In this document: positions 7,187-27,604 of the stretch, one piece after another
How positions within the stretch are numbered: the stretch's first letter is position 1
How the letters are laid out: each line of letters starts with the position of its first letter
Source: Bacteroidota bacterium
Lineage (GTDB): Bacteria; Bacteroidota; Bacteroidia; Chitinophagales; Saprospiraceae
NCBI GenBank assembly: GCA_009908745.1
Contig: JAAAOU010000500.1
Span: 1 to 35,630 of the forward strand
Direction of reading: 5' to 3'
DNA length: 35,630 bases
Made by a program: the position numbers and the translations under genes
Notes under the pieces: model-generated
The model's input: the letters and a program-made list of their open reading frames with translations, nothing else
What the model was told of the DNA's origin: nothing
The model's database searches: none

Positions 7187-8653
7187 ATGGTTTTAATTGC
7201 AGTTCTTCTACTCGCATTCATTTGTTTGCTAAGCCCGGCCAGGTCCGCTGAAAGAATCGCCGTACCGCTCGTAGGCGCGGGCTTTTTGTTCAGTGCTTAC
7301 ACCTTGTGGGACCCTACCCCCGCCATCAGCGGATGGGGGGTAAACTTTGACGCGGCTGGCCGTTTGTTCGGCACAGCCATCACTTTTGTGAGCCTTGCAG
7401 TACTGGCCTACAGCTTGCGCCATTTCGATGGGCACCGCAGCAAGCGGCTGTATTTCCGCCGCTTTGTGGCTTTGACGATCAGTCTTGTCATTTTTAGCAC
7501 GGCGGATCATTTGCTGCTTATGGTGGGCGGTTTGCTGCTGAGCAACTTCTTGCTGATCCGGTTGATGGAGCCTAACCCCTCTTGGGCAGCAGCCCGCGCT
7601 TCGGCCCGTTCTGCTTTCATCCAATTAGGGGTAGGAGGGCTGACGCTCGTATTGGCTGTAGCGATGGTCTACCTCACGCAGGGCCATTTATCCTTGCAAA
7701 GTTTGTACGCAGATTGGTCCGCCACGCCATGGCTGCCTCTGATTAGCGGGTTTGTTATCGTAGCGGCCTTGGCACAGTCCGCCATCTGGCCCCTGCACAA
7801 CTGGCTGGTCGCTTCCGCCAATGCCCCTACGCCGGTATCCGCTTTCATGCACGCCGGTTTGGTCAACGGAGGGGCGTTGATTCTGTACAAGTTTTATCCC
7901 CTGTTGGCACTCACAGGCTGGAACAGCACGGTGCTGATTGCCCTCGGCGGGTTGACGGCAGTACTGGGCACGGTATGGATGCTGGTGCAAAGCGATGTCA
8001 AGCGCACCCTCACTTGTTCTACGATGGGGCAGATGGGGTTTATGATCATGCAGTGTGGCCTGGGGCTGTTTCCGGCCGCTTTGGCGCATATGATATGGCA
8101 CGGCCTGTTCAAAGCTTCCCTGTTCCTGAGCGCCGGCTCTACGGTAAAAGCGGCGAGCAACAAAAGCCTCAAGTTAGAGGGCCCTTATGTGCTTCCAACC
8201 TTTGTTTTCGGGATTGTTATGGGCGTAGCGGGCGCTTATGTATTTTGGCTGTTTACAAACGCTAGCGGCGGTTTGGGCACCACTTATGCTTTGCTGCTGC
8301 TCTTCTGCGGTATTACTTGCGCCCATGCGGTTATGACCATATTGCAGCCTAGCCCTAGTCTTGGCCGGGGACTGTTGGCAGCGGCACTGGGGCTGCTGGG
8401 AGCCACCGTATACGGAGCGTCCGTCTGGGCCGTAGAAACTCAAATTGCGCACTTGCCGGCACCGGCTCTGAATGCTGCTCACATCGGTATTGCAATATTC
8501 TTTGCTCTAGGCTGGTTAGCGATGATTTTCCGGGCGTATTTCCCCAGTTTCGTCAGCCAGCAATGGATGGCACCGCTGTACGTACGGTTGCTGAAAGGCA
8601 GCCAGCCCAAGCATTCTACCCTCAGCTTGCGGCGTAGCAGCTATAAACTGTAG
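7187..8653 (+). CDS. dabB: DabB, membrane subunit of DAB inorganic carbon transporter
   Basis: A 488-residue polytopic protein of the proton-conducting NuoL/MrpA-like family, with about 12-13 hydrophobic helices. The motif PVSAFMHAGLVNGGALIL (about residue 218) corresponds to the ion-conducting helix region of the family. Its size, shorter than NuoL, and its position directly before a DUF2309 gene identify it as DabB rather than a respiratory complex I subunit, since no other nuo genes are nearby. In studied systems DabB couples cation flow to DabA, which hydrates CO2 to bicarbonate vectorially. It is 47 bp upstream of dabA and is probably co-transcribed. The C-terminal 25 residues are basic and probably cytoplasmic. 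Confidence 0.9.
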   Translation: MVLIAVLLLAFICLLSPARSAERIAVPLVGAGFLFSAYTLWDPTPAISGWGVNFDAAGRLFGTAITFVSLAVLAYSLRHFDGHRSKRLYFRRFVALTISLVIFSTADHLLLMVGGLLLSNFLLIRLMEPNPSWAAARASARSAFIQLGVGGLTLVLAVAMVYLTQGHLSLQSLYADWSATPWLPLISGFVIVAALAQSAIWPLHNWLVASANAPTPVSAFMHAGLVNGGALILYKFYPLLALTGWNSTVLIALGGLTAVLGTVWMLVQSDVKRTLTCSTMGQMGFMIMQCGLGLFPAALAHMIWHGLFKASLFLSAGSTVKAASNKSLKLEGPYVLPTFVFGIVMGVAGAYVFWLFTNASGGLGTTYALLLLFCGITCAHAVMTILQPSPSLGRGLLAAALGLLGATVYGASVWAVETQIAHLPAPALNAAHIGIAIFFALGWLAMIFRAYFPSFVSQQWMAPLYVRLLKGSQPKHSTLSLRRSSYKL

Positions 8654-8700
8654 CCTTGCGGCAAAACAAAACCCTACTTTTCACCAAGAAGCAAACCATT

Positions 8701-11247
8701 ATGACGCTTAATACCACCACACAACAACAAACCATCACCGGGGCTAAACCGCCCTTATCCGAACAGCTAGCCGAATTGTATCGCCTGATCGCCCCTACCT
8801 GGCCGCTGGCACACGCAGTAGCTTGCAACCCGCTGCAAGGCTTGGAAGAGCTTCCCTTTGAAGAGGCAACGCGGAAGGGTCAGGAACTTTTCGATGCGCA
8901 AACGTTGCCCGGTTTTTGGCAATTGCGCCAAGCCCTGGCCGCTGGCCATATCACCCAAGAGCAAGTGGAGCAGTCGATAGACAACGCCTTGGAAGGCCTG
9001 CCAGCGGCCCATGCCATCGCAAAGGACTCGATTGCCCTCCGCCCCCTGATGAAAACCATGGTTGAGGAGCTAGACGAGCGCTACACGCCAAGCCACACCC
9101 CTGAGTTGTTACAGCAGGCACTGGGGCAACTGCAGGAAGCCAATGCATGGCAAGGTACGCTAGAGCCGGTGAATAAAGATACGATCACCTGGTTGTCTGC
9201 TTTTCTGGACGAAGGGCAAGCGGCCTGGCCCATGCCCATGCGGGAACGCGGCTTTTACCGGGCGGTAAAAGCGTTGATGGAACTGCAAGGAGAAGGGGCT
9301 GGGCTTTTGGAGCTATTGCCCGAAGACAGCGAAGAAGCTATAGCCCTGTTGCTGGATAAGCTGCCAGTAGCCCCCAAAGACCATCATCGCTTCTTGCGCG
9401 ATCAGCTGCTGGCTTTGCCGGGTTGGGCTTCATTTATCCGCTGGCGGAGTGGGCAAAGTGATTATGCACCGCAGCTGCAGTACCCCATTACGTTGAATGA
9501 TTACTTGGCCGTACGCTTGCTGCTGCTTTGCCAACTGCCTCAAGCGGCTTGGGAAGAAGCGGTTGTACCCCAGTGCGAATGGCTCACCTTGCACCACTGG
9601 GCTGCTCAACAGCTACGCCCCGAACCGGCAACAGACCCCCGTGCATGGGCGGACTTGCTTCAGGATATGCAAGAAGCCTGCCACCGCCTGCGCCTGTCGT
9701 TGCTGCAAAGCTGGGAAGCGGCTTTTCGCCAACATATCGGCCGGCAACTGCAACAGCAGATGGCCGCAAAGCCGGAAACAGCACGCCCGGACGCACAGTT
9801 GGCTTTTTGCATCGATGTCCGCTCAGAGCCTTTCCGCCGCCAAGTAGAAGCTTGCGGCGATTACGAAACGTTTGGCTTTGCGGGGTTCTTCGGCCTGCCG
9901 ATCGCTTACGAAACCGTACTGGGAAAGCGGGTGAAATCGCTGCCTGTACTGCTCCAACCCGCCCACGAGTTACGCGAGCAAGCCAGCCCTTGCTGTGCCC
10001 ACCAAGCCGAGCGCCATCAAAACGGCCTGAAGCTGCTCAAAGAACTAAAGCAGGCTTATAAATCGCTGAAGTACAATATCGCCACGCCATTTGCGGCCGT
10101 GGAAGCACTGGGCTTGCCCGCTGGCCTCATCACCGTTGGCCGCAGCATTATCCCCCAGCCTTTGTCGAAGTTGCGCCGCCTGGGCCGGCGTTGGTTCCGC
10201 CCCGAGATTGATACCGCCCCGGATATCAACCCCGCTGAAGACTGGGGCATACCTTTCGACAATCAAGTTGCTTACGCAGGCAATGCGCTGCGCATGATGG
10301 GCCTGACGCGCAACTTTGCGCCGCTCGTCGTCCTCTGCGGCCACGGTAGCCAAACGGAGAATAACCCTTACGCTGCTGCTCTCGACTGTGGAGCTTGCGG
10401 CGGCAGCCACGGTGGGCCGAATGCTGCTGCCATGGCCCGGATTCTCAATCAGGAGGCCGTCCGCGACGCCCTGCGCGAAGAAGGTATTGCTATACCGCAA
10501 GACACCTTATTTGTCGGTGCCGAACACAATACAACCACCGATGCAGTCCGTCTGATCGACTTGCCCTCATTGACGGAAGAAAAGCAAGCGCAGGCGGCAC
10601 ACCTAAAATCCAACTTGGAAAGGGCCCAAAAACGCAACCTGGCAGAACGCGCCGGGCAGTTCGGGCTCAAAACCAGCAAAGGTATGCTGCGGCGCAGTAC
10701 CGATTGGTCGGAAGTGCGGCCAGAATGGGGCTTGGCGGGCAACGCCGGCTTTGTAGTTGCTCCCCGTCAGTTGACTGAAAAGCTGGACCTGCGGGGCCGT
10801 TGCTTCTTGCACTCTTACGATTGGGAGCAGGATGCGGAAGCTACTAGCTTGGAGGTTATCCTCACCGCCCCGCTAGTCGTGGCACAGTGGATCAACAGCC
10901 AGTATTTCTTCTCCACTGTCGACAACACGGCTTTCGGCAGCGGCAGCAAAGTGACGCACAACGTGGTCGGCAAAATCGGCGTGATGCAGGGCAACAGCAG
11001 CGACTTGATGCACGGCTTGCCCTGGCAGTCGGTCATGAAAAACGATGAGGAGCTCTACCACGAGCCCCTGCGGCTGACAGCTTTTGTGGTTGCTCCAAAG
11101 GAACGGGTGCAGATGCTGGTCGAAAAGCACGAGGTGCTGCAAAAATTGCTGTACAACGAGTGGGTCGCGATGCAGGTGCTGGACCCGGAGACGGAGCAGC
11201 TGTGGGCCTTGGGTGCCGATGGCAAGTGGGTGGCAGCTATAGTCTGA
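8701..11247 (+). CDS. dabA: DabA (DUF2309), zinc-dependent carbonic-anhydrase-like subunit
   Basis: An 848-residue protein from ATG 8701. An in-frame TTG at 8656 gives an unlikely 15-residue extension. It is a DUF2309 member with the beta-carbonic-anhydrase-like zinc site: C370 and D372 in AFCIDVRSEP, H548 in LCGHGS, and C563 in DCGACGG. The spacing of these residues matches the site reported for Halothiobacillus DabA (C351, D353, H524, C539). It is a soluble protein expected to sit on the cytoplasmic face of DabB and convert CO2 to bicarbonate. No carboxysome or RuBisCO genes are nearby, so a role in supplying bicarbonate for anaplerosis is likelier than autotrophy. The last codons and stop lie within a long inverted repeat. 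Confidence 0.93.
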   Translation: MTLNTTTQQQTITGAKPPLSEQLAELYRLIAPTWPLAHAVACNPLQGLEELPFEEATRKGQELFDAQTLPGFWQLRQALAAGHITQEQVEQSIDNALEGLPAAHAIAKDSIALRPLMKTMVEELDERYTPSHTPELLQQALGQLQEANAWQGTLEPVNKDTITWLSAFLDEGQAAWPMPMRERGFYRAVKALMELQGEGAGLLELLPEDSEEAIALLLDKLPVAPKDHHRFLRDQLLALPGWASFIRWRSGQSDYAPQLQYPITLNDYLAVRLLLLCQLPQAAWEEAVVPQCEWLTLHHWAAQQLRPEPATDPRAWADLLQDMQEACHRLRLSLLQSWEAAFRQHIGRQLQQQMAAKPETARPDAQLAFCIDVRSEPFRRQVEACGDYETFGFAGFFGLPIAYETVLGKRVKSLPVLLQPAHELREQASPCCAHQAERHQNGLKLLKELKQAYKSLKYNIATPFAAVEALGLPAGLITVGRSIIPQPLSKLRRLGRRWFRPEIDTAPDINPAEDWGIPFDNQVAYAGNALRMMGLTRNFAPLVVLCGHGSQTENNPYAAALDCGACGGSHGGPNAAAMARILNQEAVRDALREEGIAIPQDTLFVGAEHNTTTDAVRLIDLPSLTEEKQAQAAHLKSNLERAQKRNLAERAGQFGLKTSKGMLRRSTDWSEVRPEWGLAGNAGFVVAPRQLTEKLDLRGRCFLHSYDWEQDAEATSLEVILTAPLVVAQWINSQYFFSTVDNTAFGSGSKVTHNVVGKIGVMQGNSSDLMHGLPWQSVMKNDEELYHEPLRLTAFVVAPKERVQMLVEKHEVLQKLLYNEWVAMQVLDPETEQLWALGADGKWVAAIV

Positions 11248-15943: not shown

Positions 15944-15971
15944 TAGGAGATAATTGCAGGCTATTCTCCTA
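15944..15971. terminator. possible bidirectional hairpin between convergent genes
   Basis: TAGGAGA at 15944 and TCTCCTA at 15965 form 7-bp arms around a 14-nt loop between the convergent Uma2 and esterase genes, overlapping the last codons of the latter. No T-run follows on either strand, so it is a weak candidate. Confidence 0.25.
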
Positions 15972-17304
15972 GCAATTCCGCCAGCAAGCCGGCAAAGGTA
16001 TCCGAAGCGTACATGCCCACCCCATCATGGCCCACACCCGGCACAATCACCCGCTGATGCGCATGCCCACTGCCGTATATTAATTCCATATAGCGGTACA
16101 TATTCTCGCCCCGCTGGTAACGCGAACTTCCGAGCAAAGTAGCCGAGCAGTCGGCATCGTTGAATGCGCCGTCCGGCCCTTCTCCGTTACCCAGTAAATA
16201 GGTGACAGACCGGCTGGTGAAGTGCTCGTTGAAGGTCATGGCATCGGTGTTGCTTAGGTAAGCCGGCACCACTTCGTAGCCAAAGGGCCAGATGGTGTAG
16301 CCGCTGCAGCTGCTGGGGGTGTAGAGTTGATTGTTGCTTTCGTTGACGCGCTGCCCGTCCGGGTAGTAGAAGTACTGGCTGTTGGCAACGATGTACTCAA
16401 ATTCAATATCGGGATAAGCGGCTTCGGATGAATTGGCAGCGGCGAATAGGTGGGTGAATAAGCCCCCCGAGGAATGGCCCGTCACGACAATTTTTTCCAG
16501 TGCCGGAAAGTGCTCTTCGTCCGCCAAACGGCTGATGATCAGGTCGACCACTTCAAAGGCGCTCACCGCATTCGCACCCGCCGAGCCACGGCCCTCCCGC
16601 CAGCCATTCCCACTCCAGTACAGCTCGCCGTCCTGCGCAGTCGCCCCCTCCTGAAAGCCCGGGGCGATGAGTACCGTTTGCGCCGTTTGTTCCGTGTCCA
16701 TCAGGCTGGAAGTCAGGTAAGAAAAATAGTCGTCGGCATTGCGGTTGGCACCGTGTACGACGATGACCGCCGAGGTAAGCCCCGGCCAGGTTTGCTCCTC
16801 GTAAATGGGGAAACTGGCGTAGAAAGGAAAAGTAGCTTGGTTGTCGAGCGTAAGGGTAGATACGCAGGCAGCAGTAGCTTCCGTACAAGCGGTACTGGAA
16901 GCCCCTCCTTCTTCCCGGGTCGTAAAGGTATAAGTCAGGGGGGCTTCCAATCGTCCGCCATCTAGGCCAATCGCATCTTCGCTGATGCGCAGTGTGTAAG
17001 TCGTGTTGAAATCAAGCGTTGCGGCTATCGTCACCTGCGAGCTTTGGTTGGTATAGCTCAAGTCATAGGCTACGGTAGGCGATAGGGACAAGGCGGATTC
17101 AAACGCCGCCGGATCTAGGCTGCTGGAAAACACCAGCCGGATACTAGCATCCGTGTCTACGTTCATCATACCCTCTGTCAGCGCCCCGCCATTGATGCTT
17201 GCGGAGCGTAGGCTGATAGTAGCTGGCGTGCGGTCCTCCTTGTTGCAAGAAGCAATCAATAGCAAAGCGGGCAGCAGCAAAGAGAAGATACGATTGGCAC
17301 TCAT
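15961..17304 (-). CDS. surface lipoprotein alpha/beta-hydrolase (esterase) with Ig-like domain
   Basis: A 447-residue lipoprotein: the signal peptide ends in a lipobox with Cys20 (LLIASC). Residues about 28-130 form a Big_5-type Ig-like domain (VDTDASIRLVFSSSLDPAAFESAL ... YTFTTRE). Residues about 150-447 form an alpha/beta-hydrolase: oxyanion-side VVHGANRN, nucleophile elbow G276-H-S278-S-G280, and a likely catalytic His426 in VPGVGHDG. An acidic residue in GPDGAFNDADC is the probable third member. It resembles PHB-depolymerase/feruloyl-esterase-like hydrolases, but the substrate is not deducible. It is the last gene of the SLC13-SusCD locus, 77 bp after the preceding lipoprotein gene. Confidence 0.82.
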   Translation of the reverse strand: MSANRIFSLLLPALLLIASCNKEDRTPATISLRSASINGGALTEGMMNVDTDASIRLVFSSSLDPAAFESALSLSPTVAYDLSYTNQSSQVTIAATLDFNTTYTLRISEDAIGLDGGRLEAPLTYTFTTREEGGASSTACTEATAACVSTLTLDNQATFPFYASFPIYEEQTWPGLTSAVIVVHGANRNADDYFSYLTSSLMDTEQTAQTVLIAPGFQEGATAQDGELYWSGNGWREGRGSAGANAVSAFEVVDLIISRLADEEHFPALEKIVVTGHSSGGLFTHLFAAANSSEAAYPDIEFEYIVANSQYFYYPDGQRVNESNNQLYTPSSCSGYTIWPFGYEVVPAYLSNTDAMTFNEHFTSRSVTYLLGNGEGPDGAFNDADCSATLLGSSRYQRGENMYRYMELIYGSGHAHQRVIVPGVGHDGVGMYASDTFAGLLAELLGE

Positions 17305-17381
17305 AAGGGGTTAAATTTATTGAAGGCTATGCACAATAATGTTTTGGATTCGTACGCAAGAGAAATTGCCATACATAACCT

Positions 17382-19145
17382 CTATTCACAAAACGGGTAC
17401 GGGCAAGGAGAAGTTTGCGTGGCCGTAGACCCGGCGGCGCAGTCCACACCACCGTAGAAGAACGAACCGCCATTTTTGTAACCCCAAGAACCGCTGTACT
17501 CCCAAAACTGGTCGGTGCCATCCACGTTGGCATCCCCGTAGGTCTCTATGACGTCTGAATTTTGGAACAGCTCTACGGCGTCGTCGCCGTTTTGGTTCAT
17601 GGCATCAGACTGTACTACGTGGTCGAAGGCATCGTAGCAAGCGCCAAAGTAAGAAGCAATGGTTGCCGGCTCTCTAGCAATCAGGATGTGGTCGCCTTCT
17701 TCAATGGTCAGGCTGGGCAAAGCAAATTCCAAACCATCTGAGCCATTACCGTTATTAGCAATCCCTACACCATACTGCGTAATATCATCAATAGCACGGT
17801 TGGCCCGCAAGTGTACGGCTTTACCGCCGTTGGTGCCGGAGCCGTCCCACAGCAAGGCCAATGCGCCCTGTATCTGCAAGGGCACGCAGAACGGATAAGG
17901 GCAGTCGGAAGTGAAAGTGCTGGTGGAGCCCGTAGAGCAATCCACGCCCGCGTATTCCCACTCGCCATTGAGCTTGTACGCCCAGCTGCCGGTCCATTCC
18001 CACACTTCGCCGGTACCGTCGAGTTCTACATCGCCGTAGGTCTCAATGACGATATCCTCGTCGTACAGCTCGAAGGGGTCGTCTCCGTTGAAATTGACAC
18101 TCCCGGATTCGATGACGTGGTCGTAGTCGTTGAAGAACTCGCCAAAATAGTCCGCGATATTCATCCGGTCTTGGTCGCGTACCAGCAGGATGTCATCACC
18201 ACTGGAAACACTGATGGCAGGGAAGTCAATCTCCCGGCCGTCAGACCCGCCGCCGTTGTTGGCAATGCCGATGCCGTACTGGCTGAGGTCATCGATGTCT
18301 TCCAATACACGCAGGTGTATAGCCCGCCCGTTGTTGCTCGTGCCGCCAATGCGGAAAGACATAGCGCCTTTAAGCTCGATAGCAGGCGGGAGGTCGCCCA
18401 AGGTGATTTCCAAGACCTGCGGTACCATTTCCACGCCGTTGGTGATATTTTCCAAACTCACGCTGATCGTCTCTTCGCCTTCCAGCGTGCCATCACTTTG
18501 GGCCGTCAGTTCTATAGTCCCGCTTGTGCTTCCCGCTGGTATGGTAATGGAGTTGGCGCTGAGCGTGTAATCCTCGCCTTCCACCGCGGAGCCAGCGAAC
18601 ACGACATCCATGCTCACGTCCCGCAGTATGGCTTCTGGTATAGAGGCGGTGATCGTAATCATTTCAGTCTCGAACAGGCTGTTGCGGTCGCTCGTCAAGC
18701 TGATGGGCGGTGCTTCAAAAGCTGCTGTGGTGAAATCGAAGGCGTAGTCGGCTTGGCTTTCTTCTCCGTTGCTGCCGTAGGTGCCGGCGGGTAGCGACAA
18801 GGAGTAGCTGGTTTCGTACTCCAGCGGCTCGTCAAAGGTCAGAATCGCGATAGAGTTATTGCCCTCGTAGCTGACGGTATAGCCGGGCGAAGGCTCAAGT
18901 GTCAATGCGCCTTCGAAAGCCGTTTGGTCAACCGGGTGGGAAAGCACGAGGCTGATTTGGCTGAGTACGGATACGCCGGACACGCCCGTGGTTACCGCAT
19001 CCTCGTCGATGCGCAGTTGCAGTACCCGGAAATCGTTGGTAATAGGCAAGCCGTCGTCTTCCATATCGTCACAGGACAAGGTAGTGCCCAGTAAAAACAG
19101 GAACAGCAAGAACAACTTTCCATTGGAATTATATATGAAGCTCAT
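17382..19145 (-). CDS. multidomain lipoprotein with two lamin-tail-like domains
   Basis: A 587-residue lipoprotein, lipidated at Cys25 (GTTLSC). Domains in order: Big_5-type Ig-like domain (about 35-140), Calx-beta-like domain (about 148-250, with SAVEGEDYTL and LEGEETISVSLEN), then two tandem copies of a lamin-tail-like domain (about 255-420 and 424-587). The two copies share AxHLR, QYGxGIANNGxGSDG, a long acidic loop, IETYGD, a Trp-rich segment, and a closing Cys-containing GVDC...CPYPFC. The copies clearly arose by internal duplication. No catalytic motif is seen, so it is probably a surface substrate-binding protein. It starts 3 bp after the SGNH hydrolase gene. Confidence 0.78.
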   Translation of the reverse strand: MSFIYNSNGKLFLLFLFLLGTTLSCDDMEDDGLPITNDFRVLQLRIDEDAVTTGVSGVSVLSQISLVLSHPVDQTAFEGALTLEPSPGYTVSYEGNNSIAILTFDEPLEYETSYSLSLPAGTYGSNGEESQADYAFDFTTAAFEAPPISLTSDRNSLFETEMITITASIPEAILRDVSMDVVFAGSAVEGEDYTLSANSITIPAGSTSGTIELTAQSDGTLEGEETISVSLENITNGVEMVPQVLEITLGDLPPAIELKGAMSFRIGGTSNNGRAIHLRVLEDIDDLSQYGIGIANNGGGSDGREIDFPAISVSSGDDILLVRDQDRMNIADYFGEFFNDYDHVIESGSVNFNGDDPFELYDEDIVIETYGDVELDGTGEVWEWTGSWAYKLNGEWEYAGVDCSTGSTSTFTSDCPYPFCVPLQIQGALALLWDGSGTNGGKAVHLRANRAIDDITQYGVGIANNGNGSDGLEFALPSLTIEEGDHILIAREPATIASYFGACYDAFDHVVQSDAMNQNGDDAVELFQNSDVIETYGDANVDGTDQFWEYSGSWGYKNGGSFFYGGVDCAAGSTATQTSPCPYPFCE

Positions 19146-19148
19146 AAC

Positions 19149-19949
19149 TTATTTTTTGTGTTCGGTTTCAAATAGATCTTCAGTTTCGAAATCGTGTGTT
19201 TCCACTAGTTGCTGCAAGAAATCAGCGTCTTCTTGGTGCATGAAGAGGAGGTAAAGCTTTTCGCCATCTTCGTCTTTGGTCGTCAGCCGCTTCGGGATAT
19301 CCTCCAGGGTTGCCCCGCTGAAGTACTTGTAAAAGGCTAGCCCCAGCAGGTAAGTCCCGTTGGACGAGGGATGCTTGTCGTCAAAGAATAGTTCCAAATC
19401 CGGCCGTAGCGTGCGGGCTTCCGCAAAAAGCGGTCCAGCCGGCACCACATCGGCTTCAGCTTCCTCGCCAAGCTTGAGGTACATGCGTTCCACATCGGCT
19501 TGCATCAGCGGGTTGGATTTGTAGGCCCAAGTCATCATGAATACGGGTTTGGCCCCGTGCTCTTTCACGAGTTGAGCAAACTTCTTGCCGTATTCCATAA
19601 AAGACTCAGGCGTGTCTATAGAACTGAGGCTATGGTTGTTGAATACCACATAGTCCCAATTTTGCGACTCGATCAGCGCGCGGGTCTTGGTGCCGCGCTC
19701 TTCCTTCCAGTGCTGCTCCAGGTTGCTGCCGCCCACGGTGGATTGCCGGGTTTCCAGCTCCCAGCCCTGTGTGCGGGCCATAGCAGCCGTCACCTGTGGC
19801 AGGTTGAAGAAATAAGTAAAGCTGTTGCCGACAAAAAGCACGCGTTTGGGCGCTTCCTGCGGTTGCGCAAAGCCGGGCAATGCCAGCCCAAGCACAAGTA
19901 CTAGCCAAAGCCCGCGTTTGATCGTATGTGTACGGTCCTTCAAATTCAT
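19149..19949 (-). CDS. secreted SGNH-fold esterase (DUF4886-like)
   Basis: A 266-residue exported hydrolase. A signal peptide covers about residues 1-29 (basic start, hydrophobic core, ending GFAQ). Block I is VLFVGNSFTYFFNLP with nucleophile S43. Glycine of block II lies in TVGGSN (about 73-76), the block III Asn in VVFNNHS (about 104-105), and block V is D190-x-x-H193 (DDKHPSSNGTYL). All SGNH elements are therefore present. The family includes O-deacetylases and other esterases. There is no lipobox, so it is periplasmic or released. It lies 10 bp after susD and 3 bp before the lamin-tail lipoprotein gene. Confidence 0.85.
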   Translation of the reverse strand: MNLKDRTHTIKRGLWLVLVLGLALPGFAQPQEAPKRVLFVGNSFTYFFNLPQVTAAMARTQGWELETRQSTVGGSNLEQHWKEERGTKTRALIESQNWDYVVFNNHSLSSIDTPESFMEYGKKFAQLVKEHGAKPVFMMTWAYKSNPLMQADVERMYLKLGEEAEADVVPAGPLFAEARTLRPDLELFFDDKHPSSNGTYLLGLAFYKYFSGATLEDIPKRLTTKDEDGEKLYLLFMHQEDADFLQQLVETHDFETEDLFETEHKK

Positions 19950-19959
19950 GCTAGGCGTT

Positions 19960-21381
19960 TTACTGATTTACGGGAGTTGGTTCGAAGAAATCAGGGACCG
20001 GTGTTGGCACATTGGGGTTACGGTCGATCTCCGTGGTAGGGTACAAGAACCGCTGTGGCAACTGTGCGCCGGTATTCGGTTCTACTTGTACCCGGACCGT
20101 AGACTCTTTCAGCGTCCGGCGGGTATCGTTGAAGCCTTCGATATGGCCAAAAAAGGTCACGTAGCGCTCTTCCAGGATTTCCCGCAGCAGCGCGTCATCC
20201 GCCGCAATACCATCCTCGTTTTCCATGCCACCGCTTTCGAAATCGGCAGCCTCGTAAGCCTCGTACTGAATGTTAGCCATGTCGGCATTGGTCAGGTAGC
20301 CGCCGTTGGCCATGTAGGCGCGAAATTCATTCAGGTGCCCCAAGCCGGTATCAAAACCCTGCGTGCGGAAGCCGGCCTCTGCCAGCGTCAGCAGGTTTTC
20401 GTAGTAAGTAATGATGCGGGTAGGCTCTTCCTGTGCGGCAAAGCCACTCCCCGTATTGGGCTGTATGCCAAAGGAATTGATCTCAAAAAGATAGTTGTAG
20501 CGAGCGGTTTCATCCGTTTTGGCGTTGCCCCGGTAATTACTGAACATCGGGTTGTCTGCCTCATCGGGGATCACAAAGCTGGCGATAAAGTCAGCCGTCA
20601 CCAAGTCCGCTTGCCGGGAAGCGATCGCGAAGAACTGGTAGTTCAGGTTAGCGTTGCCCAAGGCGGTGCCGTGTGGCGTGATCAGGTCGTTATCCGGGGA
20701 GCTGATGCCCATTTGCGCTTCTGCGTACGCCATGCCATAGTTTTTCGTATGCATGTAAAAACGCGCTTTGAGGCTATGGGCCACCTCTATCCAGGCTTCC
20801 GGGTTGCCGTCGAAGTGGATGTCAGACCCAACTGCCGGGCGGCCAGCGCCAGATTCTAGGTCGGCAATCGCGTCATCCAAGAGGCTTTGCAGCTTGTCGT
20901 AAACCTGAATTTGCCCTTCAAAAGCCGGGCTCTCGAAAGAAGGGCGGCCGGCTTCATCGAAGGGGATACCGCCCCAAAGCGAAGCAGAGGTGCCCAGGCC
21001 GAATGCACGGATGATTTTCGTAATCCCCAGCGTAATGCCGCCAACGCCTTCTTCTACCGCGGCTTCTTCGGCGACGATAGCGTTGGCAATGGTGTTGACG
21101 AAAGCATCGTTCCACTGTGCATCAAAGTCGCTGGTGGTCACCGCGTATTCGCTAAAGCCCTGATGCTGCCGGTCGATGCCGGTGTAGTAACCGCAGAAAA
21201 TGCCTGCTTTGCGCGCCGCTTCCCCAGATTGGAAAAGCGTATTGCCGACTTCCGCGCCTGTCAGTATGTACTGGTAGGAAGAGGAAGTAGGGCTGTTTGG
21301 GTTTTCATTCAAACCGTCCACCAGATCACTGCAAGCAGTGAAAATCAGGGAGACGAAAAGAAGTATGGTAATGCGATTCAT
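19960..21381 (-). CDS. SusD/RagB-like outer-membrane lipoprotein (SusD-like_2 type)
   Basis: A 473-residue lipoprotein with Cys17 in LIFTACSD. The following segment LNENPNSP and YQYILTGAEVG is typical of the SusD-like_2 subgroup. It should sit as a lid over the SusC channel, binding the substrate at the cell surface. Helix-rich TPR-like regions are visible (for example EAWIEVAHSLKARFYMHTKNY near the middle). The C-terminal part (residues about 395-473) holds the closing motif ILEERYVTFFGHIEGFNDTRR typical of the subgroup. It is 18 bp after susC and 10 bp before the SGNH esterase. The ligand cannot be deduced from the sequence. Confidence 0.93.
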   Translation of the reverse strand: MNRITILLFVSLIFTACSDLVDGLNENPNSPTSSSYQYILTGAEVGNTLFQSGEAARKAGIFCGYYTGIDRQHQGFSEYAVTTSDFDAQWNDAFVNTIANAIVAEEAAVEEGVGGITLGITKIIRAFGLGTSASLWGGIPFDEAGRPSFESPAFEGQIQVYDKLQSLLDDAIADLESGAGRPAVGSDIHFDGNPEAWIEVAHSLKARFYMHTKNYGMAYAEAQMGISSPDNDLITPHGTALGNANLNYQFFAIASRQADLVTADFIASFVIPDEADNPMFSNYRGNAKTDETARYNYLFEINSFGIQPNTGSGFAAQEEPTRIITYYENLLTLAEAGFRTQGFDTGLGHLNEFRAYMANGGYLTNADMANIQYEAYEAADFESGGMENEDGIAADDALLREILEERYVTFFGHIEGFNDTRRTLKESTVRVQVEPNTGAQLPQRFLYPTTEIDRNPNVPTPVPDFFEPTPVNQ

Positions 21382-21399
21382 AATCTTTCAATTTTTGGA

Positions 21400-24300
21400 C
21401 TAAAAGTTCAAATTGAGGGTGAATACATAAGACTGGGTAGCCGGGTTGTTGAAATAGTCGATACCCCGGGCTTTGCTTACCCCGCTCAGGTTGGTGTCCG
21501 GGTCATTCCCCTCGAAAGCCGTCCAGATAATCAAGTTGCGGCCGGTGACCGTAAATTGGGCAGAGCCGATCCCTGTGTTGCGCTTCAGCCAATCGGACTG
21601 GGCCGTGTAGGACAAGCTGATTTCCCGCAGGCGCGTCCAAGAGCCGTCTTCAATGTATAGCTCGTCGTTGCCGCCGCTGAAGAACCCGCCATCACCGTTG
21701 TACCAGGACTCGGTCAAAGCTACTGGGCCCGCACCGAAATTGTGGACTTTACCCCGGAAGGTCTCTCCGGCAAGGATTACATCGCCGTCGTAAGTCAACA
21801 GGTTCTGGCTAGCCGTAGACTCTTGATCCGTATCGCCCCAGGTACCCAGGTCGGTCATCACGGATTTCGTGCCCGCGAAAATGTCGGAGCCTTGCAACGT
21901 CTCGAATAATACGGACAAGGTGAAGTTCTTGTATGTCAAAGTACTGTACAGGGAGCCTTGCCAGTCGGGGTTGGGGTCGCCGATCACACCCTCTAGCTGG
22001 TCTTGTACCGGGAAGCCATTCTCGTCAAACACAATATCGCCATTATCGTCGCGCAGGGTACGGGAGCCCCAAAGCACGCCGATGGGAAAGCCGAGCAGCG
22101 TCCTTGCATTTACGGCCGACAAGCCACCGAGTATGATGGAGAGGCCTTCATCCAAGCGGGTCACTTCGTTGTTGACTTCGGAGTAGATCGCGCCTACATT
22201 CCAATACCAATTCTTGTTTTTCAGAATGTTGTATTGCAGGTCCACTTCCCAGCCGTCGTTCTGAATCTCCGCGCCATTGGTGTACAAACGCGTCACGCCC
22301 CGGGAGTTGGCGATAGGGAAGTCTAGGAGTACGTCCTCCGTGGTATTATTGAAATAAGTCGCATTCAGCGTGATACGGTCGTTGTAAAAACGCAGGTCTG
22401 TACCGATTTCAAACTCTTTTTTCCGCTCAGGACGGAGTGAAGCACTGCCCCGCTGCGAGCTGGGCACAAAGGAGCCATCGCCAAACAGCCCACCGTCAAG
22501 CGAGCCGCCGTATTCGTCGCTGTAGTTCGGTGCTATAAAGATATTGGTGGTATTGTAGCGTGCAGGCTGTACCCCCACTTCGCCGTAGGAAAAGCGCAGC
22601 TTACCGAAGGACAGGAAGCCTTCGCTGAAGGCCGGCACCTCTGTAAACTGCCAGGCCACAGAAGCAGAAGGGAACAAAAAGGTATTGTCCGCCTCGCTGC
22701 CAAATGTAGAAGCGGACTCTGCCCGCAGCGTACCGTTGATGAACAGCTGGTCATAGGCATTAAGCGTAGCAGAGGAGTATACCCCTACGGTGCGTTCTTG
22801 CCCAAAGGTGCTTGTCACCTCGGTGTTTTCCGGCAGGGCGTTGTCAATGTCACGGACCCCGCTGTCTACGTCGAAAAACTGTATGAAGTTAGAAATAGAG
22901 CTGCCATCGACGATCAGCTCCCGGTTGTTGTAGTTGAAACCGACCAGCATGCTGCCGCTGAAGTTAGGGCCAAAAGAACCACCCGCCTTAGCGATATAGT
23001 CCATGTTGAAAACCGTATTGCGGGCCAGTTCTTTCTGGAAGCGGCCCTGCCGGAATGCGCCCGCCGCAGAGCCGGGCGTAAAGAAGTTCTGCTGCAATTC
23101 CGCAAATTTATCCAAGCCTACGCGGCCGATAAGGTCCAGCCAACTCGTAGGGGAAGCCGTCAACTCCGCCGAAGTGATAAAGCGGTCCACATCCACCAAA
23201 GCTTCCTGCTCGTTGATGGTCCAGGCCGGGTTGTTGTAAGTGGCAGAACCGTCAGCGCCCAGCGGTTCCCGGTAAGAACGGTGGCGGTTGAAAACAGGAG
23301 CAGCATCCGGCCCGGCGAAATACTCACCTCGGTAGCCCGTGTTGTCAAAGTCGGCTGGCGTACGCAGCAGACCCAAGTGCAGGCCCGAGGAGCTGGCGCC
23401 CCGTCGGATACGGTTGGACTTGCTCTTGGCGTAGGTGGCTGAGGCTTTCAGCTTCACGTTATCGGTGATGCGGTGGCTTACATTCACCCTGGCTGTCGTA
23501 CGCCGGTAATCGGAGTTGCTGCGGATGATGCCTTCTTGGTTCATATCGCTCAGGCTGGCGAAGATGGTGCTGTTGGCATTGCCGCCGCTGATGCTGAGGC
23601 TGTTTTCCCAAAAGTGGCCGTTTTGGAAGACTTGGTCGAAGTTGCTTTCGTCGAAAGTCTCCTGTGAGTTTTTAGAAACGACAGGGTAGTAGATATTACC
23701 TTCTTGGCCGACGTAAAACTCGCCGGAGGTATCAAATTCGTCCTGCCCGCCGGGTCGGTCTGTGATTTTGTCCCCCCAAGAGTCACGGGCACGCTGGTTG
23801 TACACGCCGTTGTCGCCTTGGCCGAAGGTGGTTTGCTTCGGGTACCGGCGGTTGATTTGGTCGACAGAATAGCTAGACTTATAATTGACCGACAGTGGCT
23901 TGTTGTACTGCCCGCCTTTGGTTTTGATGATAATCACCCCACCCAAGGCGCGTGTGCCCCAGAGGGCGGCGGCGGAGGCGCCTTTTAGCACCGTCACGCT
24001 TTCGATGTCGTTGGGGTTGATATCGTTCAGGCGCGATTGCGCGGCCAAGTTCTCCTGCGGGCCGCGGGAGGCATTACTGATAGGCACGCCATCCACCACA
24101 ATGAGCGGCTGCGCATCCCGGTCGATAGTAGAAATACCCCGGATCTGGATGTAGGCGCCAGCGCCCGGGTCGCCCGAGTTTCGGGAAATCCTTACCCCGG
24201 ATGCCCGGCCTTGCAGCGAGTTGATCACCGTAGGTTCAGCGGCTTGTACGACGGTAGAGCCGTCCACAGTAGAGCTGGCATAGCCAACCTCGTCTTCGTT

Positions 24301-24645
24301 TTCCTCGAAACCGAGGGCGGTGACGACTACTTGGTCCAAGACTTCCGCATCGTCCAACATGGTTACATCTATGGTGCTGCGGCCGTTGATCGGTTCCAGT
24401 TTGCTTTCCAGACCGACATAGCGGAAGAGCAAGGTGGCTTCGGGGCTCGATACATCAAGCGTATAATCGCCCAGCGCATCCGTTACCGTGCCGTTAGAGG
24501 TCCCCTGTTCCAGTACCGTCACACCGACCAGCGGCGTGCCGTCTGTATCATTGACATTCCCTTTTACGGTATGCTGTGCCAGCAGCGGGGTGCCGGCCAG
24601 CAGGGCACTGACAATGATTGTGCTTAGGAGTAATTTAAGCTTCAT
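21400..24645 (-). CDS. SusC/RagA-type TonB-dependent outer-membrane transporter
   Basis: A 1081-residue TonB-dependent receptor. A signal peptide (about 1-23, ending LLAQ) precedes a carboxypeptidase-regulatory-like domain (about 25-105: VKGNVNDTDGTPLVGVTVLEQGTSNGT). The TonB-box-like VLDQVVVTALG follows, then the plug (about 115-235, with SLQGRASGVRI, IQIRGISTI and PLIVVDGVPI). The remainder is a 22-strand beta-barrel ending in an aromatic residue (TLNLNF). No STN domain is present, so it does not transmit a signal to an anti-sigma factor. It pairs with the SusD-like gene 18 bp downstream and sits 35 bp after the SLC13 permease gene. Confidence 0.96.
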   Translation of the reverse strand: MKLKLLLSTIIVSALLAGTPLLAQHTVKGNVNDTDGTPLVGVTVLEQGTSNGTVTDALGDYTLDVSSPEATLLFRYVGLESKLEPINGRSTIDVTMLDDAEVLDQVVVTALGFEENEDEVGYASSTVDGSTVVQAAEPTVINSLQGRASGVRISRNSGDPGAGAYIQIRGISTIDRDAQPLIVVDGVPISNASRGPQENLAAQSRLNDINPNDIESVTVLKGASAAALWGTRALGGVIIIKTKGGQYNKPLSVNYKSSYSVDQINRRYPKQTTFGQGDNGVYNQRARDSWGDKITDRPGGQDEFDTSGEFYVGQEGNIYYPVVSKNSQETFDESNFDQVFQNGHFWENSLSISGGNANSTIFASLSDMNQEGIIRSNSDYRRTTARVNVSHRITDNVKLKASATYAKSKSNRIRRGASSSGLHLGLLRTPADFDNTGYRGEYFAGPDAAPVFNRHRSYREPLGADGSATYNNPAWTINEQEALVDVDRFITSAELTASPTSWLDLIGRVGLDKFAELQQNFFTPGSAAGAFRQGRFQKELARNTVFNMDYIAKAGGSFGPNFSGSMLVGFNYNNRELIVDGSSISNFIQFFDVDSGVRDIDNALPENTEVTSTFGQERTVGVYSSATLNAYDQLFINGTLRAESASTFGSEADNTFLFPSASVAWQFTEVPAFSEGFLSFGKLRFSYGEVGVQPARYNTTNIFIAPNYSDEYGGSLDGGLFGDGSFVPSSQRGSASLRPERKKEFEIGTDLRFYNDRITLNATYFNNTTEDVLLDFPIANSRGVTRLYTNGAEIQNDGWEVDLQYNILKNKNWYWNVGAIYSEVNNEVTRLDEGLSIILGGLSAVNARTLLGFPIGVLWGSRTLRDDNGDIVFDENGFPVQDQLEGVIGDPNPDWQGSLYSTLTYKNFTLSVLFETLQGSDIFAGTKSVMTDLGTWGDTDQESTASQNLLTYDGDVILAGETFRGKVHNFGAGPVALTESWYNGDGGFFSGGNDELYIEDGSWTRLREISLSYTAQSDWLKRNTGIGSAQFTVTGRNLIIWTAFEGNDPDTNLSGVSKARGIDYFNNPATQSYVFTLNLNF

Positions 24646-24680
24646 AACACAACTTTTTTAGTGAATGTATAAAAGCCTAT

Positions 24681-26183
24681 TCATCGCATATTATCCGGAA
24701 AATCGTGTGGGTTGAACCCCCACAGATACGGAAGGATGAAGTAGACAATGATTGTGAGTATGGCTATAGAAATCAAGTTGAGCCAGACTCCAGTTTTTAC
24801 CATTTCCGGGATTTTCAAGTAACCCGATCCAAAGACAATAGCGTTGGGCGGGGTGGCGACGGGCAGCATAAACGCGCAGGAAGCCGCCAGGGTAGCACCG
24901 ATCATCAGCACGTAAGGGTGCACGCCAATTACCGCTGCCAAAGGGGCGAGTATGGGCAGCAGCATGGCGGTAGTTGCCAGGTTGGAAGTGATCTCTGTGA
25001 GGAAGTTGACCGCCGCTACCAAAACCAGCAGCAGCATCAGCAGCGATAGGCCTTCCAACAGCGATAGCTGGCTCCCAATCCATTCTGCCAGCCCCGTCTC
25101 GCCAAAACCTGCCGCTAGGGACAAGCCGCCCCCGAAGAGCAATAGTACGCCCCAGGGCAGTTTCACCGCTTCTTCCCATTTTACGATCTTCCGGCCCTTG
25201 CCTTTGCCAGCGGGCAGGAGAAACAAGGTCGTAGCGGCAATGATGGCGATAATGGTGTCATCCAGTGCTGGCACAAACACGTTCAGCAGATAAGAGCGCG
25301 TGATCCAAGCAAAGGCAGTAGCGGCAAATACCGCCAGCACCACTTTCTCCTCGAAGGATATGGGGCCTAGCGCATCGATCTGCCGCTTGATTTCCGCCTT
25401 GCCGCCCGGGAAAGACTGTTGCTTGAAAGAGGCCGCCAGGTGCGTCAGGTAGTACCAGCAGATGGCCAGCATGATCAGAGAGACCGGCAGGCCAATCATG
25501 ATCCACTTGGAAAACGTGATTTCGATGTTGTACAATTCCTGCACAATACCTGCGAGAACGAGGTTGGGGGGCGTGCCAATCAGCGTGGCTACCCCGCCTA
25601 TAGAGGCACTGTAGGCGATGGACAGCATGAGTATCTTGCCGAAGATTTCGTTTTCGTCTGCTTTGGTGATGGGGTTGTCCTTGAGCTGGGTGATGACCGC
25701 CATACCGATAGGGAGCATCATCACGGAGGTGGCGGTATTGGATATCCACATCGAGAGGAATGCCGTGGCGACCATGAAGCCGAGGATAATGTTCCGCAGG
25801 TTGGTCCCGATCAATTGGATAATATGCAGGGCTATGCGCCGGTGCAAATCCCACCGTTCTATAGCAATAGCGAGTATAAAGCCGCCCACGTAGAGAAAAA
25901 TGTAGCGGTGGCCAAAGGAAACGGTCGTCTCACTAAGGCCAAGCGCACCCGTTAGCGGGAACAAAATGATAGGCAAGAGCGCTGTTACCGCGATTGGTAT
26001 TACTTCCAGTATCCACCAAGTCGCAATCCAGAGGGTGGAAGCAAGTACCGCAATAGCCTCTTTGCTCAGTAGTACCGCATTTTCATCCTTGCTCAGTGCT
26101 TCGGGGTCGTCGGGGTGGACGAAGAGGAGGACAGCCGCAAAAAGGGCAGGGCCCAAGAGTAAGCCTATTGTCTTCTTATTCAT
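24681..26183 (-). CDS. SLC13/DASS-family anion:sodium symporter
   Basis: A 500-residue inner-membrane transporter of the divalent anion:Na+ symporter family. Twelve or so hydrophobic segments are visible. The two SNT-type signatures that form the sodium/substrate sites are present: SNTATSVMMLP in the first half and SNLATTAMLLP in the second. Each half also has the TPPN motif (IGTPPNLVL and ATPPNAIVFG). Family substrates are di- and tricarboxylates, sulfate or phosphate; the carboxylate branch is likeliest here but not certain. It is the first gene of the SusCD locus, preceded by an 18-bp palindrome about 50 bp upstream of its ATG. An inner-membrane carboxylate porter beside SusCD suggests the imported ligand yields a carboxylate. 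Confidence 0.93.
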   Translation of the reverse strand: MNKKTIGLLLGPALFAAVLLFVHPDDPEALSKDENAVLLSKEAIAVLASTLWIATWWILEVIPIAVTALLPIILFPLTGALGLSETTVSFGHRYIFLYVGGFILAIAIERWDLHRRIALHIIQLIGTNLRNIILGFMVATAFLSMWISNTATSVMMLPIGMAVITQLKDNPITKADENEIFGKILMLSIAYSASIGGVATLIGTPPNLVLAGIVQELYNIEITFSKWIMIGLPVSLIMLAICWYYLTHLAASFKQQSFPGGKAEIKRQIDALGPISFEEKVVLAVFAATAFAWITRSYLLNVFVPALDDTIIAIIAATTLFLLPAGKGKGRKIVKWEEAVKLPWGVLLLFGGGLSLAAGFGETGLAEWIGSQLSLLEGLSLLMLLLVLVAAVNFLTEITSNLATTAMLLPILAPLAAVIGVHPYVLMIGATLAASCAFMLPVATPPNAIVFGSGYLKIPEMVKTGVWLNLISIAILTIIVYFILPYLWGFNPHDFPDNMR

Positions 26184-26363: not shown

Positions 26364-26403
26364 TGTAAAACGATTGTTTTTTAAAATTTTATACCGTTTT
26401 ACA
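26364..26403. promoter_or_regulatory. inverted repeat in promoter of the HTH membrane protein
   Basis: TGTAAAACG (26364-26372) and CGTTTTACA (26395-26403) are perfect 9-bp inverted arms with a 22-bp AT-rich spacer. A further TTTACACC follows at 26408. The site lies 23 bp upstream of the start codon of a predicted DNA-binding membrane protein, so autoregulation is plausible. Confidence 0.5.
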
Positions 26404-26425
26404 CTTTTTTACACCATAGAAATCT

Positions 26426-27604
26426 ATGCAGGACAGTTTGCAAAACCAGTTTATAGAGCAGCTTGAAGCCCTATACGGGCCATGGGAGCGGTCGACTTCC
26501 CGGTTTGGCAACGCTACCTTTGGAAAGGTGGCTGCAGATTTGTGTGTGAGCGCCAGTCAGTTTAGCAAGTTAATATCCGGTGCCGCTACAGAGGGTATGT
26601 ATACGCGCAGTATACGCAATATCGGCAGGTTGGAACGGGAGCGGCAGGCCTTGCAAGAACGGGAGGAGGCTGTGGCCAAATGGGAGGGGGTTGCCGGCAA
26701 GTTGCGGCGGCAAAGCAAGCGGGCAAAGCGTAGGCTGGTGTTGTTTTCCTTGCTGGCGCTGGTACTGGGCGGGGGAATCGCCTACTTCATTTTAAGCCAA
26801 AGCACGGCCTTGGAAACCGCAGCTGAGTTTGAACAGCGCCACCCGTTGACGCCCTATTTCGACCGGGAATTCAATGCGGCTTATGATTCGCCCTACCTCA
26901 GAGAGTCCGAGGTGCAAGCGTATTGCCCCTGTAGCGCCTACGAAGGGCGTTGGTCGCTAAGCGCGCCCTACAAGCTGCCGTTGCCGGGCAACAAGAAACC
27001 CGGGGTGTACTACCTGGGCAAAAGCGCGGATGTACGCATGAAGTGCTCCAAGAGCGACACCTCTAGGGCGGGCAAAGGCAATGTGTTGGTCGCCTACGAA
27101 TACCTGGTCAACGAGATTTGGGTGGATACCAAACTGACGCCGCTGTCGCCTACCTACTTCGACAAAGAGCAGAAATCGTTCACAGCGGCATTCGACTCCC
27201 TGCAGTTCGAAGGCAACCCACAGTTCAAAAAAGTAGCTACCATCCATTCTTTTTTCATCGACAAGTTTGAAATCTACCCGGATGCTATTACCCGCAGCGG
27301 GGAACCCTGTGGCCGTTTTGCTACGGATATCGATGAGGAGCTTGTGCGCATCTACGAGATCGATTTGAAAAACGTGCTGCAAAATGTGCTGGGGGACCTC
27401 AATAAGACAGACTGCAACCCCAGCTCAAACCCTTATTGCGACCCTAATGACTTGCAAGAAGGAGAAAGCGTGATCAGTTTTGATTGCATGTACACTATAA
27501 AATCGGAAAACCTGGGTATGGGGGGCGGTTACCCGTACCGCAAGGGGTATCGCTTGGAGAAGCAGAGTTATTCGGACAACCTGACTTGTACCTGCAGCGA
27601 CTGA
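26426..27604 (+). CDS. membrane-anchored HTH protein with Cys-rich outer domain
   Basis: A 392-residue protein of no family I recognise. Residues about 28-65 look like a helix-turn-helix (ATFGKVAADLCVSASQFSKLIS). A charged coiled coil follows (about 66-100), then a very basic stretch (RRQSKRAKRR) directly before one membrane helix (about 104-124). The remaining ~268 residues should be periplasmic. They contain several Cys (YCPCSAY near 167, CNPSSNPYCDP near 340, a final CTCSD), a CHU-like beta pattern and no catalytic motif. The topology is like ToxR/CadC one-component regulators, although the HTH type differs. It is convergent with the CHU_C gene (25-bp gap) and follows a 9-bp inverted-repeat promoter site. 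Confidence 0.7.
   Translation: MQDSLQNQFIEQLEALYGPWERSTSRFGNATFGKVAADLCVSASQFSKLISGAATEGMYTRSIRNIGRLERERQALQEREEAVAKWEGVAGKLRRQSKRAKRRLVLFSLLALVLGGGIAYFILSQSTALETAAEFEQRHPLTPYFDREFNAAYDSPYLRESEVQAYCPCSAYEGRWSLSAPYKLPLPGNKKPGVYYLGKSADVRMKCSKSDTSRAGKGNVLVAYEYLVNEIWVDTKLTPLSPTYFDKEQKSFTAAFDSLQFEGNPQFKKVATIHSFFIDKFEIYPDAITRSGEPCGRFATDIDEELVRIYEIDLKNVLQNVLGDLNKTDCNPSSNPYCDPNDLQEGESVISFDCMYTIKSENLGMGGGYPYRKGYRLEKQSYSDNLTCTCSD

Follow-up and report, generated by a model that had tools for sequence, protein, structure and literature searches.

SusCD systems that serve peptides and other non-glycans are known, and a non-glycan Sus locus is therefore not new in itself. RagAB is presented as a peptide system (PMC11817032). 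PahZ1 hydrolases have been characterised on synthetic polyaspartate (poly(Asp)), whose beta-amide bonds they cut (PMC4456602), and for DUF4886 hydrolases a 2022 review gives no member of known function (PMC9487903). Here we describe a SusCD gene cluster in a window of 35,630 nucleotides (the whole stretch of contig JAAAOU010000500.1, Bacteroidota assembly GCA_009908745.1). Like the described SusCD loci, RagAB included, it combines adjacent SusC and SusD genes with a lipoprotein hydrolase, a probable periplasmic hydrolase and an inner-membrane porter. It differs from them in lacking glycoside hydrolases (GHs), polysaccharide lyases (PLs) and a sugar porter, and in having a DASS-family porter, a hydrolase with a predicted PahZ1 fold and a putative regulator, P392, that matches no regulator family. 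No description of the set of DASS, DUF4886, PahZ1-fold hydrolase, lamin tail domain (LTD)-like protein and P392 was found among the titles and abstract openings listed in searches of the open-licence PMC literature. We give about even credence to the reading that the cluster serves, in the manner of Sus systems, to acquire a polyanion, polymeric or oligomeric, built of C4-dicarboxylate units. Beta-poly(L-malate), a natural water-soluble polyester, is the most likely single polymer and takes up about half of that credence; poly(Asp) may be seen as its amide analogue, a comparison that is our own. Bacteria using polymalate as a carbon source are reported (PMC9210645).

The cluster contains six complete open reading frames (ORFs) on the minus strand at 15961-26183, separated in the ORF listing by 35, 18, 10, 3 and 77 bp. 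An earlier note on this DNA, made from the sequence alone, had described the same six same-strand genes with gaps of 3-77 bp as the unit. All six are present at these positions, but the note overlooked the divergent gene for P392, a putative regulator that forms part of the unit. The SusC (TIGR04056) and SusD genes are adjacent and both products score above curated cut-offs, which makes this a SusCD locus by gene content; the Pfam scan reports CarbopepD_reg_2 and Plug domains in SusC and no STN domain. In line with the note, Pfam and NCBIfam scans of the six genes report no GH, PL or sugar porter. A GH or PL, which would define a glycan polysaccharide utilisation locus, was found neither among the six window genes nor in the locus spans of 12 other stretches. 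The lipoboxes of both Big_5 proteins run into acidic residues (CNKED and CDDMEDD). Acidic residues after the lipobox are a surface-export signal in Bacteroidota, and these motifs fit surface export of both lipoproteins.

Table 1. Features of the Sus-type cluster and its divergent regulator (positions in the window).
Feature	Coordinates	Strand	Basis
DASS/SLC13 sodium-coupled anion symporter, inner membrane	24681..26183	-	TIGR00785, 316.5 bits (cut-off 198.6)
SusC-type TonB-dependent outer-membrane transporter	21400..24645	-	TIGR04056, 608.2 bits (cut-off 368.25); PF07715, PF13715
SusD-type lipoprotein (SusD-like_2)	19960..21381	-	PF12771, 8.5e-21, 74.7 bits (cut-off 27)
SGNH hydrolase, DUF4886, probably periplasmic	19149..19949	-	PF16227, 7.1e-11, 42.0 bits (cut-off 26.7)
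Lipoprotein, Big_5 and two LTD-like modules	17382..19145	-	PF13205; lipobox TLSC; module duplication
Alpha/beta-hydrolase lipoprotein with Big_5, predicted PahZ1/LpqC fold	15961..17304	-	AlphaFold model; profile match; lipobox IASC
Putative membrane-anchored regulator P392, divergent	26426..27604	+	Homologue heads the cluster, divergent, in 10 other stretches
Tandem decamer array TTTTAYACnn, candidate operator	26377..26414		Three full units and one imperfect; precedes P392

In the alpha/beta-hydrolase, the Pfam scan detects Big_5 and a sub-threshold Abhydrolase_6 match (18 bits, cut-off 26.3). Its AlphaFold model, built on a 9-sequence alignment (mean predicted local distance difference test (pLDDT) 82.4), was compared with known structures. 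The three best entries are PahZ1 of Sphingomonas KT-1 (6ve6; Z 23.3, root-mean-square deviation (rmsd) 3.5, 247 residues aligned), PahZ1 of Pedobacter KP-2 (9o7u; Z 23.2, rmsd 3.2, 248 aligned) and LpqC, annotated as a polyhydroxybutyrate (PHB) depolymerase (3d0k; Z 22.7, rmsd 3.3, 248 aligned). The next entry follows 6.7 Z units lower, at Z 16.0, and the top three Foldseek entries are the same two PahZ1 structures and LpqC. Moreover, a nine-homologue profile reaches them from sequence alone (LpqC 5.9e-10, PahZ1 1e-8 and 3.3e-5), while a four-homologue profile gives 0.0004, 0.012 and 0.48 for the same three entries. Ser278 (in GHSSGG), His426 and the G..R..R stretch are invariant in an alignment of seven that includes PahZ1-like proteins; the catalytic acid is probably Glu375 or Asp378, an assignment less sure than those of Ser and His. 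By its model, the enzyme has a PahZ1/LpqC-type fold and is clearly nearer to these enzymes than to other alpha/beta-hydrolases. The structure prediction supports the earlier proposal of a polymer-cleaving hydrolase, since this is the fold of backbone-cutting enzymes. PahZ1 is the best fold match of the window enzyme and has the HG, GxSxG, G..R..R and His elements in common with it; the window enzyme differs in its added Big_5 domain, its inserts and its identity of only 17-20%. LpqC is tied with PahZ1 in fold and profile matches, but PHB gives a monocarboxylate, which is not a known cargo of DASS porters, and we rejected PHB as the substrate on account of this product. Cutin or suberin, the former suggested by the note, was likewise set aside: nothing in the locus indicates it, long-chain diacids are not a known cargo of DASS porters, and both the fold and the neighbouring genes suggest a polyanion of C4 acids. 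The siderophore hydrolases EstA/EstB and PfeE also occur among the Foldseek matches, and the locus might accordingly take up an ester-linked siderophore that the alpha/beta-hydrolase opens. The E-values of these matches are no better than 2.1e-8, well behind the 3.5e-13 and 6e-14 of PahZ1/LpqC, and a siderophore pathway offers no obvious role for a dicarboxylate porter; we consider siderophore uptake extremely unlikely.

A homologue of PahZ1 is found in the locus of one other genome. In G459, which belongs to another family, the position of the hydrolase is taken by a lipobox-bearing PahZ1 homologue 9 bp after the LTD-like gene (E 1.8e-51; 89 of 241 aligned residues identical, 37%). PahZ1-like proteins occur in 6 of the 58 genomes of this family, G459 included. 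In two of the other five, G1167 and G1135, only 12 and 7 bp separate the PahZ1-like gene from a downstream gene for a DASS porter that is 64% and 62% identical to that of the window; DASS was absent from the stretches examined in the other three (G1168, G1144 and G536). The neighbours in G1167 (stretch L165) include a MocR-like regulator, LTD-type proteins, the C4-dicarboxylate transporter DcuC (385.8 bits, cut-off 100), a beta-aspartyl-peptidase (TIGR01975, 405.4 bits, cut-off 331), a porin and an M14 carboxypeptidase, and the DcuC and peptidase counterparts in G1135 (L166) are 80% and 76% identical to these. Genes of the PahZ1 family and of this porter family are therefore associated in no fewer than two gene arrangements, and in one of these C4-acid genes surround them. 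Seen as clusters of their own, L165 3087-15655 and L166 2-10000 each have the PahZ1-like and DASS genes divergent from a MocR/LTD/DcuC/beta-aspartyl-peptidase/porin cluster, and are likely utilisation clusters for poly(beta-Asp) or isoaspartyl compounds.

These arrangements raise the possibility that the window locus targets a polymer with beta-aspartyl links or an isoaspartyl peptide (residual cyanophycin, an Asp-rich protein or material resembling poly(Asp)), cut at amides, with aspartate or a derived C4 acid entering through DASS. The PahZ1 homologue in the G459 locus is in keeping with this, as are the PahZ1-like genes accompanied by DASS, DcuC and beta-aspartyl-peptidase, the M14 carboxypeptidase of L165, and an M14 gene in the same cluster as SGNH-DASS in L030. 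The window genome, however, whose assembly is 95.4% complete, has no beta-aspartyl-peptidase orthologue (the best match is 35% identical over 82 query residues, in a 995-aa frame), and for this reason we prefer an ester over an amide polymer for the window. Moreover, the SGNH superfamily mostly acts on esters and DASS members prefer dicarboxylates over amino acids. We regard an amide target as quite unlikely.

The porter of the window scores above the TIGR00785 cut-off and carries both SN-type binding motifs, which places it among the DASS symporters. Its motifs are SNTAT, SNLATT, GTPPN and VATPPN; SNLAT, GTPPN and VATPPN are invariant in 12 aligned locus porters (window included) and SNT is kept in 11 of the 12, L067 having TNT. 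NaDC1, NaCT and VcINDY belong to the same family. The best matches in the PDB are human or mammalian NaDC1, NaCT, NaDC3 and NaS1, and the binding-site motifs are nearest those of NaDC1 and NaCT, whereas NaS1 has SNPAT and VANPPN. The motifs are of the carboxylate type, a di- or tricarboxylate being the predicted substrate of the porter; it differs from the described SLC13/DASS carriers in being part of an outer-membrane uptake locus. It could instead carry sulfate or another inorganic anion, the locus feeding on a sulfate or phosphate ester: NaS1 scores near NaDC1 against the window porter (1.7e-77 and 6e-83), and in L028 a sulfatase gene stands downstream of DASS with one ORF between. The invariant SNLAT and VATPPN of the 12 locus porters, unlike the NaS1 motifs, argue otherwise, and no sulfatase was found inside the locus spans examined, whose flanking genes were scanned in part. 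An inorganic anion is very unlikely as the cargo.

The SGNH protein is above the Pfam cut-off for DUF4886 and keeps the catalytic residues Ser43, Gly74, Asn105 and Asp190-x-x-His193 in an alignment of 10 (Asn105 in at least 90%). Its N-terminus looks like a signal peptide by eye and a motif check found no lipobox; it is therefore probably periplasmic and not a surface lipoprotein. The note placed the cleavage at the surface, which fits the alpha/beta-hydrolase, a lipoprotein, and probably not the SGNH enzyme. Relatives of the latter outside DASS loci adjoin GH97 (L090), lie near GH3 (L029) or adjoin a penicillin amidase gene (L027), and one that is 72% identical adjoins an acyl-CoA dehydrogenase gene (L024). 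In view of such neighbours the family is not specific for dicarboxylate esters, and the window enzyme may have a carbohydrate-esterase role. The cluster might then supply accessory esterases for the use of an acylated glycan: SusCD would import an acyl-saccharide, both hydrolases would be carbohydrate esterases, the glycosidases would be encoded at other loci, and the freed acyl acid, for example succinate, would enter through DASS. The GH neighbours suit this account, SusCD pairs mostly belong to glycan systems, and feruloyl and acetylxylan esterases are also among the fold matches of the alpha/beta-hydrolase. According to the 2022 review, carbohydrate-active enzymes occur in 9 of the 11 SGNH families with a characterised member (PMC9487903). 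On the other side, no GH, PL or sugar porter lies between the genes of the loci examined, the hydrolase is nearer PahZ1/LpqC (Z 23) than feruloyl esterases (Z 15-16), and the GH-linked SGNH proteins are 31-40% identical, with DASS absent from their stretches. We judge an acylated glycan to be an unlikely substrate.

The second Big_5 lipoprotein (587 aa) has two C-terminal modules that are 50% identical over 166 aa, along with Big_5 (PF13205) and a sub-threshold Calx-beta-like domain. The duplication described in the note is thus real; its 'lamin tail' label is indirect for the window protein, since Pfam LTD (PF00932) was not reported for it at E 0.01 and is above the cut-off only in several related cluster proteins. 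We consider it a candidate polymer-binding or scaffold protein. In L030 (10818-12971), a 717-aa protein joins a DUF4886 domain to LTD-like repeats in the same cluster as SGNH-DASS.

The locus is real and conserved. The full set of P392, SGNH, DASS, SusC, SusD, Big_5/LTD-like protein and alpha/beta-hydrolase is present in eight genomes of two families, so the genes stay together elsewhere; the note had named a search for conserved gene order as a check. Seven are from one family (G000, the window genome, and G004, G235, G381, G017, G203 and G065); in the eighth, G859 of another family, the Big_5 protein has GLUG motifs in place of the LTD-like pair and there is an additional 1114-aa LTD-like protein. 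Five further loci are partial: DASS-SusC-SusD-SGNH truncated at contig ends in G032; SusC-SusD-SGNH-DASS-LTD-like-PahZ1 homologue with a distant P392 in G459; SGNH-DASS-SusC-SusD with a distant P392 in G766, from another class; SusC-SusD-SGNH-DASS in G024; and SGNH-DASS with a distant P392 and LTD and M14 genes, without SusCD on its 20-kb contig, in G048. SGNH directly precedes DASS in G203, G065, G859, G766, G048, G459 and G024, and in the remaining loci DASS heads the cluster and SGNH follows SusD. Stretch L021, obtained in a contig search with the hydrolase, has genes matching those of L062 (G381) and was counted once. In the locus spans of 12 stretches, all ORFs of at least 120 aa have a counterpart among the locus proteins of the window or match the PahZ1 homologue of G459, except for two antisense ORFs in L023. 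Hence no GH lies between the locus genes in these stretches; a GH there was one of two findings that, according to the note, would refute its proposal.

All loci except G859 were picked by SGNH or hydrolase matches, so that the presence of P392, DASS and SusCD in them is unselected. SGNH matches at least 39% identical come from 15 genomes and are associated with DASS in nine (G000, G004, G032, G017, G024, G048, G065, G459 and G766); the six without DASS in the stretch examined are G008, G015, G019, G036, G452 and G651, of which G015 and G651 end at contig ends. The hydrolase query matched 44 of 396 order genomes at 0.001, mostly across the Big_5 domain. At 3.5e-81 or better it matched six, and all six have the locus; the next two matches (G021, 5.9e-37; G252, 4.1e-32) are without it in the neighbourhoods examined.

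P392 has an XRE-like helix-turn-helix (HTH), one transmembrane helix at ~103-125 and a beta-rich extracytoplasmic domain (model mean pLDDT 77.5), and no regulator family in Pfam or NCBIfam scores above cut-off. It shares HTH, single transmembrane helix and beta-rich outer domain with ToxR-like one-component regulators, but its HTH is XRE-like and not winged. Its fold matches are weak (ToxS/VtrC Z 6.4-7.0, XRE-like HTH Z 6.2, OmpA/NspA barrels 7.4-7.6), and the ToxS/VtrC values are no evidence of kinship. Close homologues stand divergently at the cluster head in L022 (75% identical), L061 (66%), L062 (48%), L063 (59%), L064 (58%), L067 (55%) and L155 (56%), and distant ones (27-29%) are found in L084, L085 and L030. 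P392 was detected in 4 of 395 phylum genomes at 1e-8 (G000, G065, G459 and G766), and its profile in 4 of 395 class genomes at 1e-10 (G000, G065, G859 and G459). These are five genomes altogether, with P392 always beside the cluster and nowhere else; G859, found through the P392 profile, proved to hold the whole locus. The P392 genomes of the phylum sample are the four best among the 17 of 395 with an SGNH match at 1e-20. Eleven of these 17 SGNH neighbourhoods were examined, the six at 28-34% identity being left out, and DASS is nearby in four, the same four P392 genomes.

When the regions upstream of five P392 genes were aligned, a block of TTTTAYAC units recurring every 10 bp emerged, which we scored as matches over three units (maximum 24). 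The window array scores 24/24 at 26387-26414; apart from the frame at 26377, which overlaps it, the window has no second site with a score of 20 or more. The array is present in all eight loci with a close P392, five of them used in its discovery and three independent (L063 23, L064 21 and L155 22 of 24). The three loci whose P392 is distant lack it, as does L131, where P392 is missing; L061 has an extra 20/24 place in the intergenic region that holds its array. Each of the eight regions was also shuffled 2000 times with dinucleotides preserved, and a shuffle attained the observed score only once, in L062. The TTTTAYAC array is thus a candidate operator for P392.

Put together, SusD would capture the chain at the cell surface, assisted by the LTD-like lipoprotein, and the lipoprotein hydrolase, with its PahZ1/LpqC fold by model and profile, would cut the backbone there. 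Oligomers would enter the periplasm through SusC, as its family function suggests, where the probably periplasmic SGNH hydrolase would finish them or strip ester groups. The DASS symporter would then import the free dicarboxylate with sodium, and P392 would sense the ligand and act on the TTTTAYAC array. More specifically, and only tentatively, this may be the first Sus-type polymalate utilisation locus, with SusCD, a surface PahZ1-fold polyesterase, a periplasmic DUF4886 oligoesterase, a sodium/malate symporter and, to switch it on, a new kind of membrane-anchored XRE-type regulator binding the TTTTAYAC array, whose units would recur at each turn of the DNA helix, the PahZ1/DcuC/beta-aspartyl-peptidase relatives being its poly(beta-Asp) counterparts.

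Several observations weigh against a C4-dicarboxylate polymer, among them the SGNH neighbours, the sulfatase gene and the missing peptidase orthologue described above. The hydrolase is remote from PahZ1 (17-21% identity in the fold alignment), it scores 16.9 bits for NF050058 (short-chain polyhydroxyalkanoate depolymerase type 1; cut-off 150), and the alpha/beta-hydrolase superfamily is broad. In Foldseek, the thermostable esterase 3doh follows closely behind Pedobacter PahZ1 (4.7e-11 and 9.5e-12), its TM-score being lower than those of the PahZ1/LpqC entries. The two next-best relatives of the hydrolase, in G021 and G252 (34-36%), adjoin neither a DASS nor a SusCD pair like those of the locus. 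For plasmid-borne relatives of PahZ1 (30 records), five neighbourhoods were examined; they show no common context, and a dicarboxylate porter was not seen in these five, whose annotation is incomplete. Furthermore, a Comamonas polymalate hydrolase is described as having neither metallo- nor serine-esterase activity (PMC9210645).

The porter, moreover, is not tied to the locus, which qualifies the note's proposal of carboxylate import through SLC13. A DASS search gave 39 close matches in 37 of 298 order genomes, six of them in the locus; 20 of the other 33 were examined. SGNH, P392, LTD-like protein, hydrolase and a close SusC are absent from all 20 of these neighbourhoods, and three (L139, L143 and L150) have distant SusC-like ORFs (24-31%) at least two genes from DASS. 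In L132 and L145, DASS homologues lie near what we take, from N-termini, to be uronate-catabolism and TRAP genes. The locus porters do not form one clade (the tree has six changes, at least three of them forced by starred branches), and a single joining event of DASS with the locus is therefore unsupported.

G005, from the genus of the window, has a porter at the same site that is 89% identical to that of G004, with one flank at 79-85% DNA identity and without the P392, SusCD, SGNH, LTD-like and hydrolase genes. In the tree it stands beside the G004 porter, within the locus porters (100/99). Comparison of L131 5407-9589 (G005) with L022 1074-6937 shows DASS retained and the rest of the locus missing. 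The site may be a natural deletion or a pre-insertion state; the tree position is as loss would give. This would fit a porter that already serves the cell on free acid, with the locus opening up a polymer in addition.

Elsewhere in the window, at 7187-11247 (+), a Proton_antipo_M protein is succeeded by one of DabA type (PF10070, 825 bits); the two are likely a DAB-type inorganic-carbon transporter pair. At 154-2611, His_kinase and LytTR response regulator genes adjoin a gene for a Crp-family regulator.

If a polymer of C4-dicarboxylate units is indeed the substrate, the Sus architecture would serve a non-sugar polymer of organic acids. DUF4886 enzymes would gain a physiological setting and PahZ1-type hydrolases a plausible natural role. 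Finally, the locus would provide marker genes for bacteria that consume polymalate or similar polyanions, together with a regulator and its predicted operator.

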